DNA of 64,000 nt from positions 124,001 through 188,000 of the forward strand of contig NZ_JAIQZE010000004.1 of NCBI RefSeq assembly GCF_020164595.1. The letters run 5' to 3'. The position numbers and the translations under genes are program-made. Position 1 is the stretch's first letter. The number at the start of each line of letters is the position of its first letter. The DNA comes from Psychroflexus longus. Its GTDB lineage: Bacteria > Bacteroidota > Bacteroidia > Flavobacteriales > Flavobacteriaceae. Shown one piece after another: positions 55,531-64,000 of this stretch. The notes beneath the pieces are model-generated. The model had not been told where the DNA came from. It saw nothing but the letters and a program-made list of their open reading frames with translations, and did no database searches.

Positions 55531-57708
55531 ATGATAGGAATCATCAAAAATATTCAATTAAGAAAAATTTGGAACAAAGGATATCCTGATTTTACATCTT
55601 GGCTTTCCGAGCATTTAAATGATATAGGAGATGCAATTCATCTTAAACTTAAATTTGTAGCTAAGGAAATTCCTTTAGGTCCATTCTGTGTGGATATTTT
55701 GGCAAAAGATAAAAAGACAGATAAATTTGTAGTTGTTGTAAATCAACTTGAAAGTACAGATTACGAGCATCTCGGTAAATTTATTACTTATGCATCTGTC
55801 TTAAATGCTTCGTCAGTAATATGGATCACTTCAAATTTTAGCGACGAACACAAGAAAGCACTTGATTGGTTGAATGATCATACATCAGATGAGATTAATT
55901 TTTACGGTGTAAAGATTGAAGTTTGGCAAATTGAGAATTCCCAACCCGCTGTAAGATTTAACGTAATAAGTCAACCAAATTCTGCTGTTAGGCAAACCAA
56001 ATCACGGTACAATAATGAGAGTGATACAAAATTGGCTAGCAAAGAATTAGAAGCCTATGAACTTCAAAATTCTTTGGATAAGGCAAATGCTATAGTCAAA
56101 TTAAGTTGTGATGGTCAAATTTTATCTGTAAATAAACTGTTTTGTGACATGTTGGAGTACGAGCCGGATGAATTATTACAGAAGGACTATAGTTTTTTAA
56201 TTCCTGGAATTGAAATGCAAAAGAATTTCAAAAACTGCTTGGAAAAATCTAAAAAGGGAGAAAATCAAAAAGAAGAATTTGTAACAAGGACTAAAGGCGG
56301 TCAAGAAAAGTTTATAGAATCTAGTTTATTTCCTGTTTATAGTAAAGACAACAAGTTTCAGTTTATTTTAAAAATTGCGAATGACATTACAGATAAAATT
56401 AGACACCAAAAGGACTTGGAGCAAAGAAAACAAGAAGCAGAAAAGGCTTTAGTTGCTAAGGATAATTTTTTATGTAACATGAGCCATGAAATCCGAACAC
56501 CGCTAAATGCTATCATTGGTTTTTCGGATCTTTTAAGAAAAGAAGATTTGAATGCTTCGCAATTCGAATATGTGGACACCATTTTAAGAGCCGGGGAAAG
56601 TTTACTCTATATTGTAAATGATATACTAGATCTTTCTAAAATCGAATCCGGTAATTTTTCTCTAGAAAAAAAACTATTCAGTCCAGAAAAGGTACTGGAG
56701 TATGTTTACAATATGCAGAAAGATAAGGCATCCAAAAAGGGTGTCAGTCTTGAAAAAGAAATTAATGGTGTATTGCCGGAATTGGTGCTTGGAGATGAAT
56801 ATAGATTAAGCCAAATTATTATTAACCTAGTTAACAATGCTATAAAATTTACACACGAAGGGTTTGTTAAGATATGTGCATCTGCGGAATTAGTCGCCAA
56901 TAATAAATCTGTTTTATCTATAAAAGTGCAAGACAGTGGTATTGGGATACCGGAGGATAAACAACAAATGATTTTTCAGCGCTTTACTCAAGCAGAGACT
57001 GATACTACAAGAAAGTACGGAGGTACGGGCTTAGGTCTCAATATTGTTAAATTATTAGTAGATAATTTTAATGGATCCCTTAAATTAAAAAGTAAAATAG
57101 GTGAGGGTTCCGTTTTTTCTGTTTCTATTCCATTTGAATTAGAGAAAAAATCAAAAGAAAATAATCAGAGTTCAGATTCTCAATGTAGACACAAACAAAG
57201 TAAAATTTTGATGTTTGAAGATAATCCATTGAATCAAAAGTTAGTACAAAAAATTATAGTCGAACTTGGGCATGAATTGATTGTTGTTTCAAATGGTTAT
57301 GAAGGTGTGGAATGGCTTAAAAACAATGAAAGTGTTGACTTAATTTTGATGGATTTAGTCATGCCTGGCATGGATGGTTTTGAAGCCACTTCCATTATTA
57401 GAGAAAAATTAAAGATTAATACTCCAATAATTGCAATGACGGCTCACTCGTTGAGACAAGAGAAAGCTAAATGCATCGAGTTTGGTATGAATGGCTTTTT
57501 ATCAAAACCTTTCAAACTTGAGGTTCTTGTTAGCAAAGTACAGACTGCTCTTAATAATGAAAAGCAATCTATCAGTATGTCAGATGAATCTGCTGAGAAA
57601 AAACCTGGTAAGCTGCCAGATCTAGAAGATTTGAAATTATTAGGCTCAAGGAAGGATTTATTAAAAAAATATCAGGTGTCTTCATTAATGAAACGTCAAG
57701 AAAATTAA
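55531..57708 (+). CDS. Hybrid histidine kinase with N-terminal pseudo-nuclease domain
   Basis: The 725-residue protein has no membrane segment. Residues 1-150 match the PD-(D/E)xK domain of DUF4268-type proteins (PLGPFCVDILAKD, HLGKFITYAS, VWQIENSQPA). Asp55 is kept, but the usual E-N-Q catalytic triplet reads V70-N71-Q72. Then come PAS (~180-290), HisKA with H319 (MSHEIRTPLN), HATPase (G-boxes DSGIGIP, GGTGLGL) and a REC domain with D608 (~557-680). It may be a sensor that binds nucleic acid or a ligand through a dead nuclease fold. It precedes the exopolysaccharide-like cluster by 248 bp. Confidence 0.9.
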   Translation: MIGIIKNIQLRKIWNKGYPDFTSWLSEHLNDIGDAIHLKLKFVAKEIPLGPFCVDILAKDKKTDKFVVVVNQLESTDYEHLGKFITYASVLNASSVIWITSNFSDEHKKALDWLNDHTSDEINFYGVKIEVWQIENSQPAVRFNVISQPNSAVRQTKSRYNNESDTKLASKELEAYELQNSLDKANAIVKLSCDGQILSVNKLFCDMLEYEPDELLQKDYSFLIPGIEMQKNFKNCLEKSKKGENQKEEFVTRTKGGQEKFIESSLFPVYSKDNKFQFILKIANDITDKIRHQKDLEQRKQEAEKALVAKDNFLCNMSHEIRTPLNAIIGFSDLLRKEDLNASQFEYVDTILRAGESLLYIVNDILDLSKIESGNFSLEKKLFSPEKVLEYVYNMQKDKASKKGVSLEKEINGVLPELVLGDEYRLSQIIINLVNNAIKFTHEGFVKICASAELVANNKSVLSIKVQDSGIGIPEDKQQMIFQRFTQAETDTTRKYGGTGLGLNIVKLLVDNFNGSLKLKSKIGEGSVFSVSIPFELEKKSKENNQSSDSQCRHKQSKILMFEDNPLNQKLVQKIIVELGHELIVVSNGYEGVEWLKNNESVDLILMDLVMPGMDGFEATSIIREKLKINTPIIAMTAHSLRQEKAKCIEFGMNGFLSKPFKLEVLVSKVQTALNNEKQSISMSDESAEKKPGKLPDLEDLKLLGSRKDLLKKYQVSSLMKRQEN

Positions 57709-57956: not shown

Positions 57957-59024
57957 ATGGAGAAAAGCAATTTTATTGAAACGGTATTAATTCCTTATAT
58001 CATACCGATATTATCAATCTTATTTCTAAGTGTAATCATATTGCTCTTTTTAAACAGGTTGGCTATAATTAATTTTAAAATTTTAGACAAAAAAATAAAA
58101 AGGAAGTTAAATGATTTCTTGCCTGAATTTTTTCTAGCTGGACTTTCTGAAATCGAAAAAGATATTGAAATAGAAAAATTTAAAAGTAATCATAACATAA
58201 GTAGCTATAGGTTTAGGGAGTTGCTAGTTGAGTCACTTATAGAATTAAAAAATAGTTTAAAAGGTGTTGATGAAAGAGAATTTATTAAGATTTATGAAGC
58301 ATTCAATCTAGATAAGCATAGTTATAACCTGTTGAAAAGTTTCTTTATCTTCTATAAGAAAAAAGGAATTTATCAATTTGAAATGATGGATTATAAACCA
58401 GCGGCTAAAGATATTGAACCTTATATACATCATCGAAGTAAAAGATTAAGTGCAAATGCTCTAATAGCTTTCATCATACTGACAGAAAAAGACGTTTCTT
58501 TCCTAATAGACATTAAATATCAGCCTTCATTCGCCAAAGAAATTGAAATACTTGAAATCTGCAAAACAAGAAAATTAAAACGTCCTGACTTACTCAAAAA
58601 TTTCTTGTTTTCAGAAAACGATTTTATTGTAAGAACTGGTCTTCGTTTAGCGGTTTATTATAATGCTTCAGATTTGGAGTCTGAAATTACAAATTGCATA
58701 AATCACAAGAATCCAAGCGTGAGAGAGCTTGCGTATGTAGCTTTGGCTGACTTATTTCTCGAAGATAAAGCAGATGAAATGATTTCTCGCTATGGTGAAG
58801 AAACAGTAAATAATCAAACTCAAATTGTATCAACTCTAAGTAAAATTGGAAAAGAAAATCACCTTGATTTTCTTAAACCCCTTTTATTAAAAAGTAATTA
58901 TAATGAGCTTGAAATTGCAAGAACCATAAATTCTATCAATCCTGAAGCCTTATTTAAAATGGCAAATAATAACAATAGGGTAGAAGATATTAAAAAACAT
59001 ATTAATGAAAATCTACTGAAATGA
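57957..59024 (+). CDS. Membrane-anchored HEAT-repeat protein
   Basis: The 355-residue protein has one N-terminal transmembrane helix (~11-32), a basic juxtamembrane segment (KILDKKIKRKL) and a cytoplasmic helical-repeat region (~90-350) of HEAT type (NPSVRELAYVALADLFLED). It overlaps the glycosyltransferase gene by ATGA and so is probably a subunit or regulator of that synthase, for example a co-polymerase or docking platform. No enzyme motif is seen. Confidence 0.8.
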   Translation: MEKSNFIETVLIPYIIPILSILFLSVIILLFLNRLAIINFKILDKKIKRKLNDFLPEFFLAGLSEIEKDIEIEKFKSNHNISSYRFRELLVESLIELKNSLKGVDEREFIKIYEAFNLDKHSYNLLKSFFIFYKKKGIYQFEMMDYKPAAKDIEPYIHHRSKRLSANALIAFIILTEKDVSFLIDIKYQPSFAKEIEILEICKTRKLKRPDLLKNFLFSENDFIVRTGLRLAVYYNASDLESEITNCINHKNPSVRELAYVALADLFLEDKADEMISRYGEETVNNQTQIVSTLSKIGKENHLDFLKPLLLKSNYNELEIARTINSINPEALFKMANNNNRVEDIKKHINENLLK

Positions 59025-60475
59025 TAGACTATTTCTTCACCTTCGTAACCTGGTTTGAATATTTCGTATTAATATTCATGCTTTCATATGTTTTATTTTA
59101 TTCGCTCTTAGCGGTTTCCTCTTACCTAGCCATTGATAAATTTCAAAGATTAAAATACGATTACCCTAAAGATTTAATGCTCAAATCTAGTCAGGTTCCA
59201 GGTATTTCTGTTGTGATACCGGCTTATAATGAGGGAGATGTTGTTGTCGATAATTTAAAAACATTTCTCTCATTACAATATCCAAAATTTGAAGTTATCG
59301 TCGTCAATGATGGTAGTACAGACGATACTTTGGTAAAACTTATCAATAATTTCGATTTAAAAAAAGTTGATTTTTATTATAAAGAAAAAATTAAAACACA
59401 AGGCGTTCGAGCGCATTATAAATCTACCAACCCTGTATACAACAAACTTTTGGTTGTAGATAAAATAAATGGAGGTTCTAAAGCTGATGCTTCAAATGCT
59501 GGGGTGAATTCATCATGCTATCCAATTTTTCTTTGCACAGATATGGATTGTATCTTGAAAAATGATACTCTTACGAAACTAGTTCTTCCTTTTATGGTAG
59601 AAAAGAAACGAGTTATTGCTACTGGTGCAGGACTTCGAATTTCAAATAATTGTAAGATCAAAGAAGGCACAATAGAAGAAGTGAGATTTCCCAAAAAGAT
59701 GTTTCCAAGATTTCAGGAGTTGGAATATGTTCGCTCCTTTTTATTTGGCAGAATGGCTTGGAGTCGTATGAACGCTCTTCTTTTAGTTTCAGGTGGGTTA
59801 GGCATGTTCGATAAAAAAGTTTTCTTTGAAGCAGGTGGCTATTGGGATAAATCTTTTGGCGAAGATTTTGAACTTATCACAAGAATGCGAAAATTAATGC
59901 ACGATAAAAAAGAAGAATTTGCTATAAGATATATCCCTGAATCTCTATGTTGGACAGAAGTGCCTGATACCACAGATTTATTTATAACTCAAAGGTCACG
60001 TTGGGCTAGAGGCTTAATCCAAACAATAAAAATCCATAGGAATATGTTTTTAAATCCAAAATACGGGATCACTGGCATGTTGGCTTTTCCTTATTTTGTT
60101 TTTTTCGAATTTTTAGTACCAATCCTAGAACTTTTGGGGGTCCTCATAATCATATTTTCTTTGATTTTTTTAGAGTTAAATTATGATTTTGTGCTTTATC
60201 TATTTCTGGCCGTTTTTCTTTTCTTTCAATCCATTACCCTCATTTCCATTTTGATAGATGAGTTTATTTTCAAGAACTATAACAGTTTGAAGGAAATTTT
60301 AATTCTAATCACCATGTCTATGATAGAACCTATAATATACCATCCGATAAATACTTTTGCTTATTTAAGAGGGTATTGGTGTTTTTTCACTAGAAAACAG
60401 CCTAAGTGGGGTGACATGAAGCGTAGAGGGTATTTAGTAAAAATAAATTCGACAGAAAGTGAAAAATATATTTAA
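59021..60475 (+). CDS. Processive family 2 glycosyltransferase (polysaccharide synthase)
   Basis: The 484-residue inner-membrane enzyme has an N-terminal helix (~10-35), a cytoplasmic GT2 domain and four C-terminal helices (~345-440). Catalytic motifs are D174-M-D176, G280-E-D282 and Q324-R-S-R-W328, the QxxRW signature of processive synthases (PNAG, hyaluronan, cellulose). N-terminal VVIPAYNE and VVNDGSTDD bind the sugar nucleotide. It likely polymerises and moves a polysaccharide across the inner membrane. The sugar cannot be predicted. It overlaps the next gene by 17 bp. Confidence 0.9.
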   Translation: MIDYFFTFVTWFEYFVLIFMLSYVLFYSLLAVSSYLAIDKFQRLKYDYPKDLMLKSSQVPGISVVIPAYNEGDVVVDNLKTFLSLQYPKFEVIVVNDGSTDDTLVKLINNFDLKKVDFYYKEKIKTQGVRAHYKSTNPVYNKLLVVDKINGGSKADASNAGVNSSCYPIFLCTDMDCILKNDTLTKLVLPFMVEKKRVIATGAGLRISNNCKIKEGTIEEVRFPKKMFPRFQELEYVRSFLFGRMAWSRMNALLLVSGGLGMFDKKVFFEAGGYWDKSFGEDFELITRMRKLMHDKKEEFAIRYIPESLCWTEVPDTTDLFITQRSRWARGLIQTIKIHRNMFLNPKYGITGMLAFPYFVFFEFLVPILELLGVLIIIFSLIFLELNYDFVLYLFLAVFLFFQSITLISILIDEFIFKNYNSLKEILILITMSMIEPIIYHPINTFAYLRGYWCFFTRKQPKWGDMKRRGYLVKINSTESEKYI

Positions 60476-61721
60476 ATCAAAAATGCTCTGGTTGCTATTC
60501 ATTATGGGTACCAGCGCATTAGGGCAAGACATCAATGTGGATTCACTTCTATATGAAACCATTGATTTGTTGAAAGAAAAAGAATATGAAAAAGTAAAAA
60601 TTAATGCCCAGAAGGCATTGAAAATTGCACCAGATTATCTTGACTTTAATTTAGTCTTGGGAAGAGCACAACAAATGACAGGTGAAGTTGATAAAGCTAG
60701 ACAGAACTTCAAATTAGTAATAGATAAAAATAAAGATTATAAGACTGCTTTTTATTATTTGTTTGATTTAGAATTTCAGGCAGAAAATTACCAAAGTGCC
60801 AAAGAAGTGTGCGAAACAGCAATAACATACTATCCTGAAGAAAAAGACTTTTATTTCAAAAAACTTTCAATATTTCAGTCCCTTGGAGATTTAAAAGGTG
60901 AATTCACTTATATAAAGGAGATTCAACCCAAATTCCCAGATGATAGCGAGCTGAACAGGCGTTTAGTCAACCTTGAACTTCGTTTTGATTTTGATATCGC
61001 TGGATTAAATTACAGTATCACTGCTTTCGATAGGGAAAATTTTGGACCCTGGCATTTGATGAGCTTTCAATATATACGGCAAAGAAAATGGGGGGCGCTA
61101 ATCCCTCGTATAAATTATGCAAATCGTCTTTCTGCTGTTGGCGAAAGTAGAACTGGTCTTCAGTACGAACTGGACTCTTATATTTTCACAGGTATCAACA
61201 ACTATACTTATGTCGGAGGATCTTACAGTAGTGATGACGTTTTTCCAGAATGGAGATTTAGAGCCTCACATTTTAGATTTTTTGATAAAGGCTGGGGAGC
61301 GGATATCGGTGCACGCTATGATCAAACATTTGACGATCGAAACTTTTATACAGCAGCTTTAGGTCTCAATAAATACTTTGGTTCTAACTGGATTTATCTT
61401 AGATCATTTATGATGACCGAAGGTAATAATAAATACTATCCAGCTTTTACGTTGACAACACGTCACTATATAGATACAAGGTTCGATTACATTGGATTGA
61501 TCTTAAGCTATGGAACAAATCCTGACGAACGATCCATTCTTAACCAATTCCAACGCCGCGTTTCTACTGAAGCCTACCGCGTTAACTTAGGATATTTCAG
61601 AATGTTAAATCAAAGATATTTGATAGGTATTCAAGGAGGGTACAACTATCAGGAACTTATACCAGGTCGTTTTCAGAATGAGTATGAATTGTTTTTAAGC
61701 TTACAGTATAAGTTCAACTAG
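60459..61721 (+). CDS. TPR / YaiO-type outer-membrane beta-barrel protein
   Basis: The start is GTG 60459 (MKNIFKSKMLWLLF), giving a signal peptide ending ALGQ at ~23; ATG 60483 is an alternative. Residues ~25-165 are three or four TPRs, and ~175-420 a YaiO-type barrel ending in Phe-Asn. This layout (periplasmic TPR plus outer-membrane barrel) is that of PgaA, BcsC and AlgK/E exporters. With the coupled GT2 synthase it suggests a trans-envelope polysaccharide conduit. Confidence 0.87.
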   Translation: MKNIFKSKMLWLLFIMGTSALGQDINVDSLLYETIDLLKEKEYEKVKINAQKALKIAPDYLDFNLVLGRAQQMTGEVDKARQNFKLVIDKNKDYKTAFYYLFDLEFQAENYQSAKEVCETAITYYPEEKDFYFKKLSIFQSLGDLKGEFTYIKEIQPKFPDDSELNRRLVNLELRFDFDIAGLNYSITAFDRENFGPWHLMSFQYIRQRKWGALIPRINYANRLSAVGESRTGLQYELDSYIFTGINNYTYVGGSYSSDDVFPEWRFRASHFRFFDKGWGADIGARYDQTFDDRNFYTAALGLNKYFGSNWIYLRSFMMTEGNNKYYPAFTLTTRHYIDTRFDYIGLILSYGTNPDERSILNQFQRRVSTEAYRVNLGYFRMLNQRYLIGIQGGYNYQELIPGRFQNEYELFLSLQYKFN

Positions 61722-63917
61722 ATGCAAATACGATTTTTTATAATCTTCATAATTTTTAATGTGACACTCAGTATAAATTCACAGAATATATCAATTTATG
61801 AATTTAATGAGTTTCAACTCACCTTGTTTCATACTAAATCAACTGAGCAACACTCTAATGAACTGAATCATTATTTTTCAGAAGTTTTGGGAAATACCAT
61901 TAAGGTATCTTGTGTTGAAAAAAACAATCAAATTCTTTTAAGTATCAATACCAAAACTTTGAATGAAATCACTTTTGAAATTTATTCTGATAGTAACAAT
62001 ATTAGGATCAGCGGAGGAAGTGGGAAAGCCCTTCAAAGAGGTATAGCTTTTTTTTTAGAAACCATTGGGATTATAAAGATCACTGAAAAAGATTGGTTTC
62101 TTAAAAAGGATAAACAATTAAGTTTTCCTTCTCATTTTTATAAGAAATCTGAACCGGATTTTGTTTACCGTTATTTATACTATCCTGGAAATTTCAATAA
62201 AGACTTTAGAAGCTGGTATCAATTAGATGGAATAGATCAAGATTTTGGTATCTGGGGGCATAGCTATCATAAGTTAATGCCACCAAGCATATATTTTAAA
62301 AAACAACCTGAACTTTTTGCCTTATTTGAGGGCGAAAGAAATTCAGGCTCTATTTGTTATACTAACGGGCGAACTCAAGAGATCTTTAAGGCTGAATTAA
62401 AAAAAATCATTAAGAAGAATCCTCATGCTAAGTTCTTCTCAGTAAGTCAAAATGATGATGAAGTTTATTGTCAATGCAATAGGTGCGAAAAATTGAATAA
62501 AAAACATGGTGAGGATCGTGGTTCACATTATGTCTTTCTCAACGATTTGGCAAAAGAATTTCCCAATCATAATTTGATCTCTTTAGCTTATTTACATACA
62601 TCACAACCTCCAAAAGATTTACATCTTGTACATAATCTTTATATTATTTATTGCCCGATTAATTTGAATCGCGGGATAAGTTTCGCAGAAGATCCGAGAA
62701 GCTCAGACATGAGAGCTACTCTTAAAAATTGGACGGAAGCGACAGAAAACCTCTTTTTCTGGGACTATACGGTTCAGTTTACAGATTATTTTTCAGCTTT
62801 TCCCAATATACATACCTTTCAAAAAAACTATGATTATCTTAAAAAGGAGGGCATTAAAGGTCTGTTTATTCAAGGTTCTGCCGACATTCCTTCTCATTTT
62901 TATGAATTGAGACAATTTCTACTCGTAAATTTATTACAAAACACTGAAATAAATGTTGATGAAAAAACATTGGATTTTATGGAAATGTTTTATGGCAATG
63001 CTGCCAAATATGTTTCTGAATATCTGAACCTTTTTACAAAAAATCAAATTGACAGCAATTCCTATTTGAGTATTTACGATAACCCTGTCAAACAAATTGA
63101 AACCTTTCTTAGTCCTGAACACATGTCCGACTACAATCAAATCATTCTAGGCGCAGAAGAGATTGTTAGAAAAGATAGTAAGGTGTATAGTCGAATTAGG
63201 GATTTGCGTTTATCCTTGGAGTATACCTACTTTCAACAATCTAAATTTTTTGGTAAAGACCAACATGGTATGTTTATTAAGAAAACTAATGACGATGACT
63301 ATGAAATTCGTCAAAACCTTACTAAAAGGGTTGAGGATTTCACTAAACACTTAAATGGAAAGGGAGTTTATGAGATTTCTGAAATGGGGCTGAGTCCTGA
63401 CGAGTATTATCAACGTTGGTTAGAGATTATAAATTATGCAAACATAACTTCAGAAGCCAAAAAATTAAAAATCAATTTATTAACTCAGCCAAGTGAAGAT
63501 TTCAAAGGAAAAGGGGCTTATGGATTAGTCGATGGTGTAAGAGCTTACAAAGATTACAACATAAATTGGGTAGGATGGTACGGAAATGATGCAGAAATTG
63601 AAATTGAACTGGAGGGGCAGCAAGTAAATCAAATAAAAATAAATTTTTTAGAAAATCAAAGACACTGGATTTTTCCTCCTGTTAGTATCAATTTATTCGG
63701 GATTAAAGATGGACAGAAAGTCAAAATGAAAACTTGTCATTTTCCAGAACTTATTGAAAATGAAAACATAAAGATTATTTCTAAGACTTTTAATAACCTC
63801 GATACAAATAATTATAGTAATTTAATACTAGTTATTAACAATCGAAATTTACCAATCTGGCGAAAACGAAAAAATAAAAAAGCCATGTTTATGCTCGACG
63901 AAATAGAAATTTATTAG
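61722..63917 (+). CDS. DUF4838 glycoside hydrolase-like secreted protein
   Basis: The 731-residue protein has a signal peptide (1-20, SINSQ), a hexosaminidase-N-like domain (~25-125), a DUF4838 TIM-barrel-type domain (~140-480; WGHSYHKLMPP, VSQNDDEVYCQCNRCEKL with a CxCxxC motif) and a C-terminal discoidin-like sandwich (~620-731). DUF4838 proteins neighbour alpha-glucuronidase and GH20 folds. It begins on the base after the previous stop. By analogy with PgaB it may trim or modify the exported polysaccharide. Confidence 0.87.
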   Translation: MQIRFFIIFIIFNVTLSINSQNISIYEFNEFQLTLFHTKSTEQHSNELNHYFSEVLGNTIKVSCVEKNNQILLSINTKTLNEITFEIYSDSNNIRISGGSGKALQRGIAFFLETIGIIKITEKDWFLKKDKQLSFPSHFYKKSEPDFVYRYLYYPGNFNKDFRSWYQLDGIDQDFGIWGHSYHKLMPPSIYFKKQPELFALFEGERNSGSICYTNGRTQEIFKAELKKIIKKNPHAKFFSVSQNDDEVYCQCNRCEKLNKKHGEDRGSHYVFLNDLAKEFPNHNLISLAYLHTSQPPKDLHLVHNLYIIYCPINLNRGISFAEDPRSSDMRATLKNWTEATENLFFWDYTVQFTDYFSAFPNIHTFQKNYDYLKKEGIKGLFIQGSADIPSHFYELRQFLLVNLLQNTEINVDEKTLDFMEMFYGNAAKYVSEYLNLFTKNQIDSNSYLSIYDNPVKQIETFLSPEHMSDYNQIILGAEEIVRKDSKVYSRIRDLRLSLEYTYFQQSKFFGKDQHGMFIKKTNDDDYEIRQNLTKRVEDFTKHLNGKGVYEISEMGLSPDEYYQRWLEIINYANITSEAKKLKINLLTQPSEDFKGKGAYGLVDGVRAYKDYNINWVGWYGNDAEIEIELEGQQVNQIKINFLENQRHWIFPPVSINLFGIKDGQKVKMKTCHFPELIENENIKIISKTFNNLDTNNYSNLILVINNRNLPIWRKRKNKKAMFMLDEIEIY

Positions 63918-63919
63918 CT

Positions 63920-64000
63920 ATGAAAACAAAAATTTTAGTTATCGATGATAACAAATTGACTTTAAAAATGATTTGTTTTATTCTTGAAAAGAATGATTAT
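63920..64000 (+). CDS. Response regulator, 5' fragment
   Basis: ATG 63920 follows the DUF4838 stop by 2 bp. The 27 visible residues read MKTKILVIDDNKLTLKMI, the start of a CheY-like receiver with the paired acidic residues; the gene runs out of the window. Its place at the end of the cluster makes it a probable partner of the hybrid kinase, or a c-di-GMP or transcription output. Confidence 0.85.
   Translation, partial: MKTKILVIDDNKLTLKMICFILEKNDY

Follow-up and report, generated by a model that had tools for sequence, protein, structure and literature searches.

Which machinery do five closely packed genes at the end of a 64,000-nucleotide (nt) stretch of the Psychroflexus longus genome (hereafter the window) encode, and what might control it? 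A preliminary description of this DNA had proposed a synthase-dependent exopolysaccharide system in which a HEAT-repeat protein and a DUF4838 protein replace the known partners, a reading that gene anatomy and conservation support. In known synthase-dependent systems, the co-polymerase binds cyclic di-GMP (c-di-GMP). We consider it probable that the operon specifies such a system with the HEAT protein and a stand-alone receiver in place of the c-di-GMP-binding co-polymerase. From the anatomy and conservation of the genes we infer an export system, and polymer synthesis and export by the operon are very likely; gating of the synthase by the receiver, by way of the HEAT protein, is a tentative proposal. 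The five genes are as follows, with protein lengths in amino acids (aa).

57957-59024, + strand: HEAT-solenoid membrane protein, 355 aa (open reading frame (ORF), AlphaFold model); proposed synthase co-protein and receiver dock
59021-60475, + strand: processive-type glycosyltransferase of family 2 (GT2), predicted membrane synthase, 484 aa (Pfam Glycos_transf_2, motifs, hydrophobic segments)
60459-61721, + strand: secreted TPR and YaiO outer-membrane beta-barrel protein, 420 aa (Pfam YaiO and TPR, TIGR04390); proposed export pore
61722-63917, + strand: secreted DUF4838 protein, 731 aa (Pfam DUF4838, AlphaFold); proposed periplasmic polymer-processing enzyme
63920-64000 in the window, running to window-equivalent 64279, + strand: stand-alone receiver (response regulator), 119 aa (Pfam Response_reg)

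The operon and its products

The ORF coordinates confirm that the five genes overlap or nearly abut, as had been described. The HEAT and GT2 genes overlap by 4 nt and the GT2 and TPR-YaiO genes by 17 nt, and the DUF4838 gene abuts the TPR-YaiO gene, whose start codon is GTG with a possible later start at an ATG (codon 9). The receiver gene, truncated by the end of the window, is whole on the host contig (L002:9921-10280, equivalent to 63920-64279 of the window).

The GT2 carries a Glycos_transf_2 domain (Pfam, 9.9e-16) and the motif QRSRW at residues 324-328, in which Q324, R325, R327 and W328 are invariant across 18 aligned sequences, as are D97-G98, D174xD176 and G280-E281-D282. QxxRW and GED motifs are the hallmark of processive GT2 synthases. 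Together with the hydrophobic segments seen by hydropathy at the N- and C-terminal ends, these motifs point to an inner-membrane polysaccharide synthase. The TPR-YaiO protein has a signal-peptide-like N-terminus, TPR repeats at about residues 37-162 (Pfam) and a YaiO domain at residues 182-357 (PF19413; 2.2e-39, 135.7 bits against a cut-off of 23.9), and also exceeds the cut-off of TIGR04390 (94.3 bits against 32). A TPR domain is thereby coupled, on one protein, to an outer-membrane barrel that could serve as the pore.

Before the AlphaFold model, sequence gave only a weak HEAT assignment, because the HEAT_2 score (Pfam; 2.9e-5, 24.7 bits) lies under the curated cut-off of 27.7; a homologue in locus L020 exceeds that cut-off with 42.2 bits. 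In the model, which has a predicted local distance difference test score (pLDDT) of 95.4, a helix at residues 4-60 is followed by repeats, and the top structural matches are the alphaRep, importin-alpha and IntS4 solenoids (HEAT/ARM-type). The predicted structure is thus a helical-repeat solenoid, and no single family stood out in a VIA-align search with the model, as solenoids score alike. That the assignment is an artefact of a sub-threshold Pfam match was rejected, since both the model and the family profile described below contradict it. A hydropathy peak at residues 14-32 indicates one N-terminal membrane helix, and the K/R-rich stretch that follows would, by the positive-inside rule, place the helical-repeat domain in the cytoplasm. 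The "HEAT repeat" passage of one paper concerns beta-catenin and is unrelated to the operon protein (PMC12419801).

The fourth product belongs to DUF4838 (PF16126; 2.4e-74, 250.8 bits against a cut-off of 26.6) and also matches NAGLU_N under its cut-off (6.3e-5). Its AlphaFold model (pLDDT 87.4) has a glycoside-hydrolase-like TIM barrel and a C-terminal discoidin-type domain. The model matches the structures of BT0459 and of GH115, GH84, GH67 and GH20 enzymes, that is, glycosidase folds of the GH20/67/84/89/115 type, and residues 576-731 match discoidin-type (carbohydrate-binding-like) domains. The top structure by Z score (6q63, Z 21.1), with a root-mean-square deviation of 12.2 over 510 residues, agrees domain by domain and not as a single rigid body, and Foldseek gave TM-scores of 0.26-0.44. 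The literature searched, in which one paper mentions DUF4838, yielded no biochemically characterised enzyme of this family. The PgaC-like GT2 and the hexosaminidase- or uronidase-like folds are a hint of an amino-sugar or uronic-acid polymer.

Conservation of the core and exchange of accessory enzymes

Among 27 genomes of the genus, a HEAT profile matched eight at E<=0.001, strongly in four (G000, G112, G100 and G102) and as weak partial matches of 19-20.5 bits in the other four. In each of the four with strong matches the genes run HEAT-GT2-YaiO-DUF4838-receiver, with 60-88% protein identity to the window, and this order is kept though the flanks differ, which is more than chance. Compared with the closest relative, the ratio of nonsynonymous to synonymous substitution rates (dN/dS) of the five genes is 0.05-0.11, with dS near or greater than 1. 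The patchy presence in 4 of the 27 genomes suggests gain and loss. A second, distant locus of the type receiver-HEAT-GT2 was also noted in G100 (L127), where a weak, truncated YaiO-like match is found.

A single-sequence HEAT search found matches in 22 of 100 genomes of the family. GT2 adjoins HEAT in all 22, and YaiO lies in the same cluster in 21, being about 10 kb away on the opposite strand in the 22nd. YaiO occurs in 24 of the 100 genomes, namely these 22 together with G030 and G041, where a divergent HEAT gene precedes GT2 (split over two ORFs in G041). With the HEAT profile, 47 genomes reach E<=0.001, and the full-length matches (at least 115 bits) fall in exactly the 24 YaiO genomes, nine of which supplied profile rows and so match by construction, while G030 and G041 supplied none. 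Matches anywhere else are partial and score at most 47 bits, and given this clear gap we rejected the possibility that the profile detects generic HEAT proteins.

The core extends well beyond the family. A GTDB genome scan with the GT2 alignment, from which the best 80 of at least 391 relatives were kept without regard to their neighbours (and which is thus no census), covers 12 phyla: Bacteroidota, Balneolota, Bacillota, Pseudomonadota, Myxococcota, Bdellovibrionota, Acidobacteriota, Elusimicrobiota, Gemmatimonadota, Actinomycetota, Spirochaetota and Fidelibacterota. These labels are those of the record titles, and many loci are metagenome assemblies; L039, labelled Beijerinckiaceae, is a Chitinophagaceae-type locus and may be misbinned. 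A HEAT homologue lies directly upstream of GT2 in 77 of the 80 loci (62 of them below 1e-3 in the first pass of an iterated profile, from 21 Flavobacteriaceae-type loci, and 15 in the second pass only), and two contigs begin inside GT2. In the remaining locus, a Spirochaetales metagenome assembly, HEAT and GT2 share one 949-aa frame (L107:8570-11419); this frame could reflect a genuine fusion, or else an indel that arose in assembly at the overlapping junction. The HEAT/GT2 overlap is exactly 1 or 4 nt in 26 of the 77 loci; eight apparent overlaps of more than 60 nt reflect over-long ORF starts. YaiO was found within about 6 kb in 54 loci: 46 of 54 of Bacteroidota type, 8 of 18 other diderm or unassigned and none of 8 monoderm loci, a distribution that fits an outer-membrane part. 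The preliminary description had named, as evidence that would count against it, homologous clusters in which most genomes lack the GT2 or barrel gene. Such a pattern was seen neither in the family (GT2 in 22 of 22, YaiO in 21 of 22) nor among the GT2-selected loci, where HEAT is upstream or fused in 78.

The same description had treated DUF4838 as a core part, which is not borne out. In the family, DUF4838 was detected in 13 of 100 genomes, eight of them over the cut-off, and adjoins YaiO in just three (G000, G030 and G041); in three other strong cases (L119-L121) it lies away from any HEAT, GT2 or YaiO gene. Because so few genomes pair it with YaiO and most of its genes are elsewhere, DUF4838 is a recruited enzyme, one accessory among several, and no marker of the system. 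Across the 80 loci, a DUF4838 gene is present within about 6 kb in 14, directly after YaiO in 13 of these, and a sulfatase-fold protein in 19. In a FastTree phylogeny of GT2, the window and three genus relatives fall within a clade of ten rows; the remaining six carry HEAT-GT2-YaiO-receiver and no DUF4838. DUF4838 presence changes four times on this tree, one change being an artefact of L044, which was scored without DUF4838 although its contig ends there (L116, with a broken GT2 frame, was excluded). In another clade, locus L074 of F. salmonis combines a sulfatase-fold protein with a DUF4838 protein that shares 45% identity with that of the window. The sulfatase-fold domain is itself fused to GT2 as a single protein of 1139-1178 aa in L056, L059, L065, L069 and L071 (1139-1142 aa in the Weeksellaceae and Sphingobacterium loci); identification of the 800-residue sulfatase-fold gene was by Pfam in five family loci and by a profile in the others. 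From these fusions, and from the tree changes and co-occurrence of DUF4838, the periplasmic enzyme slot is therefore exchangeable around a fixed HEAT-GT2 core.

Two further variations were observed. In L058, a gene between YaiO and HEAT (L058:7162-9051) weakly resembles polysaccharide deacetylases (20.3 bits; cut-off 23.1), and its product is a possible further periplasmic or surface enzyme of the accessory slot. Tandem GT2 pairs follow HEAT in L039, L040, L042 (where HEAT precedes the pair), L044 and L089, mostly Chitinophagaceae-type loci, and possibly serve a two-sugar polymer.

Proposed receiver input in place of c-di-GMP

The fifth product is a receiver (Response_reg, 8e-28) with no DNA-binding and no output domain, and must therefore act by contact. 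A receiver gene lies within about 6 kb in 63 of the 80 GT2-selected loci, against a background of about 0.1 per stretch of that length, given that the host genome has 24 receiver domains in 2.95 Mb. Its position is before HEAT in most lineages, after DUF4838 in the genus of the window and after YaiO in the nearest relatives of the genus. We count the receiver gene, but not the upstream kinase, among the core parts.

The most telling point, which the preliminary description had overlooked, is that the host genome has no c-di-GMP synthesis: a domain search found no GGDEF domain in it. GGDEF is likewise absent from 26 of 27 cluster-bearing genomes checked (G093 has one GGDEF protein), and the search found it in 8 of 14 control genomes. 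No PilZ domain was found by Pfam in the GT2 or in the other four operon proteins, and thus no regulatory domain or co-polymerase for cyclic-dinucleotide binding was recognised in the operon.

Two hybrid kinases flank the operon.

55531-57708, + strand: hybrid histidine kinase upstream of the operon, PAS-HisKA-HATPase-REC (Pfam); likely partner, not conserved
L002:10311-12785, downstream and beyond the window: second hybrid kinase, with GAF, PAS, HisKA, HATPase and REC and a sub-cut-off Hpt match

The two are related to each other, and the closest relative (L124) also has kinases on both sides. The upstream kinase is present where it had been reported and is kept in L124, but not in L125 or L126, and it was rejected as a core part since it is not conserved among the relatives' loci. 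It ends just after REC, with no Hpt found, while the Hpt match of the downstream kinase scores 23.5 bits against a cut-off of 24.6. Phosphorelays are usually laid out with a REC- and Hpt-bearing kinase next to a free-standing receiver, and by this analogy the downstream kinase may feed the operon receiver.

We propose that the GT2 would polymerise an activated sugar, threading the chain through its own membrane helices, with the HEAT protein, anchored through its single membrane helix, holding or gating the synthase on the cytoplasmic side. The chain would be captured by the secreted TPR-YaiO protein and passed across the outer membrane, and the secreted DUF4838 protein may trim or bind the chain en route. 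In the most conjectural step, the receiver, once phosphorylated by a neighbouring hybrid kinase, would bind the HEAT scaffold and switch synthesis, and this receiver-HEAT switch would occupy the role of the c-di-GMP-binding co-polymerases of Bcs, Pga, Alg and Pel.

A broader generalisation, which we offer as speculation and hold slightly less firmly than the gating itself, is that the operon represents a widespread (12 phyla), mostly undescribed synthase class. Its switch would be a phosphorylated receiver, not c-di-GMP, docking on a membrane-tethered HEAT protein fused or translationally coupled to the synthase; this arrangement would be standard for synthase-dependent polymers in Bacteroidota, whose genomes are often free of GGDEF proteins, and exchangeable periplasmic enzymes (DUF4838 glycosidase-like or sulfatase-fold) would set the final structure. 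If true, this would be a sixth synthase-dependent design with a different control logic (HEAT always, receiver usually, GGDEF-free genomes) and would explain regulated matrix polymers in bacteria without c-di-GMP. It would also assign DUF4838 a function, account for the TPR-YaiO barrel family beyond E. coli, and offer a direct biochemical test of phosphorelay gating of a processive glycosyltransferase.

Alternative explanations and known systems

Several observations weigh against an exopolysaccharide system gated by the receiver and HEAT protein. No receiver was found in 17 of the 80 loci, including several DUF4838-type loci with complete flanks; in six of the 17 (L049, L055, L073, L078, L082 and L096) the cluster is at a contig end. 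Outside Bacteroidota, the cluster receiver is fused to GGDEF in L100, L106, L110 and L113, three of which also have Hpt, and c-di-GMP may have a part in control there; the simplest interpretation takes receiver input as what the loci have in common, with c-di-GMP added in some lineages. At a threshold of E<1e-10, YaiO went undetected in eight of the 54 loci of Bacteroidota type and in ten of the 18 others that are not monoderm; absence may be common in the latter group too, or the profile may miss distant barrels, and because of these cases the absence from monoderms is only weakly specific. Of the eight family genomes with an over-cut-off DUF4838, only three carry it beside YaiO, and the GT2 is far under the cut-off of every curated synthase model.

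The receiver-less loci are what would be expected if the operon were an exopolysaccharide system in which the receiver and kinases act elsewhere, for example as a phosphate sink or with a distant partner, and the HEAT protein were a structural or stability subunit like a signal-less PgaD. HEAT is present in all 78 testable loci, the position of the receiver shifts between lineages, and no receiver-HEAT fusion was seen among the loci compared. We nevertheless judge this explanation unlikely, as a receiver lies beside the cluster across 12 phyla at far over the background density.

If instead the cluster glycosylated a lipid, an outer-membrane protein or another acceptor, with no free polymer, YaiO would be a structural barrel. 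The modest GT2 scores extend to all curated polymer synthases, and 26 of the 80 loci have no recognised YaiO within the span searched, both of which this explanation would accommodate. It is quite improbable given that QxxRW and GED are invariant in the 18 sequences, that a 325-residue alignment of the GT2 with E. coli PgaC shows 25% identity (E=6e-21), that TPR and barrel occur together, and that HEAT and YaiO co-occur exactly in 24 of 24 genomes.

The synthase-dependent system proposed here was also compared with those already described. Bcs has, like the operon, a processive GT2, a TPR exporter and a periplasmic glycosidase. Unlike Bcs, the operon has a GT2 without PilZ, and the CelA/BcsA model TIGR03030 scores 45.6 bits against a cut-off of 699.1. 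With E. coli PgaABCD, which makes poly-N-acetylglucosamine (PNAG), the operon shares a GT2 synthase, a small inner-membrane co-protein, a periplasmic enzyme with a glycoside-hydrolase-like domain and a TPR and barrel exporter. It differs in having HEAT and not PgaD, a YaiO-type and not a PgaA-type exporter gene, DUF4838 and not the PgaB deacetylase/hydrolase (no match to a PgaB-type or polysaccharide deacetylase was found by Pfam in the five proteins), a receiver, and a host genome without c-di-GMP synthesis. The best NCBIfam model for the GT2 is PgaC_IcaA (TIGR03937), at 119.3 bits against a cut-off of 422.3. The system would work like Pga or Bcs, yet it is a variant of synthase-dependent exopolysaccharide secretion set apart from both, and was assigned to neither because the curated tests for both fail and the c-di-GMP part is missing. 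That it is a diverged PNAG or cellulose system with missing partners elsewhere in the genome, for which the PgaC_IcaA match speaks, is very improbable in view of the gap between that score and its cut-off, a GT2 without PilZ, the lack of a deacetylase in the cluster, a profile search of the host genome that yielded no other full-length synthase of the kind, and the recurrence of phosphatase-fold, DUF4838 and HEAT partners with the GT2 clade of the operon.

The E. coli yaiO-yaiX-yaiP-yaiS region is similar in having a YaiO barrel near a GT2, together with a deacetylase gene, and the GT2s are weakly similar (44 bits). It differs in that no HEAT or receiver gene is present in the 9-kb E. coli stretch compared, and the two YaiO proteins have only the Pfam family in common, with no BLASTP similarity; yaiX of E. 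coli K-12 is interrupted by IS2. A 2020 survey, in its passages on these systems, names five known synthase-dependent polymers and describes the co-polymerase as typically binding a cyclic dinucleotide (PMC7112194). The parts it lists also include a polysaccharide synthase of the inner membrane and an outer-membrane pore to which a TPR domain is coupled (PMC7112194). No description of the cluster was found among the matches listed in the PMC literature searched, which leaves subscription papers and preprints outside its scope and novelty unproven.

Further downstream on the host contig, beyond the second kinase, L002:14988-18287 encodes a large repetitive secreted protein of 1099 aa, the C-terminal tail of which resembles what we take to be a type IX secretion sorting domain.

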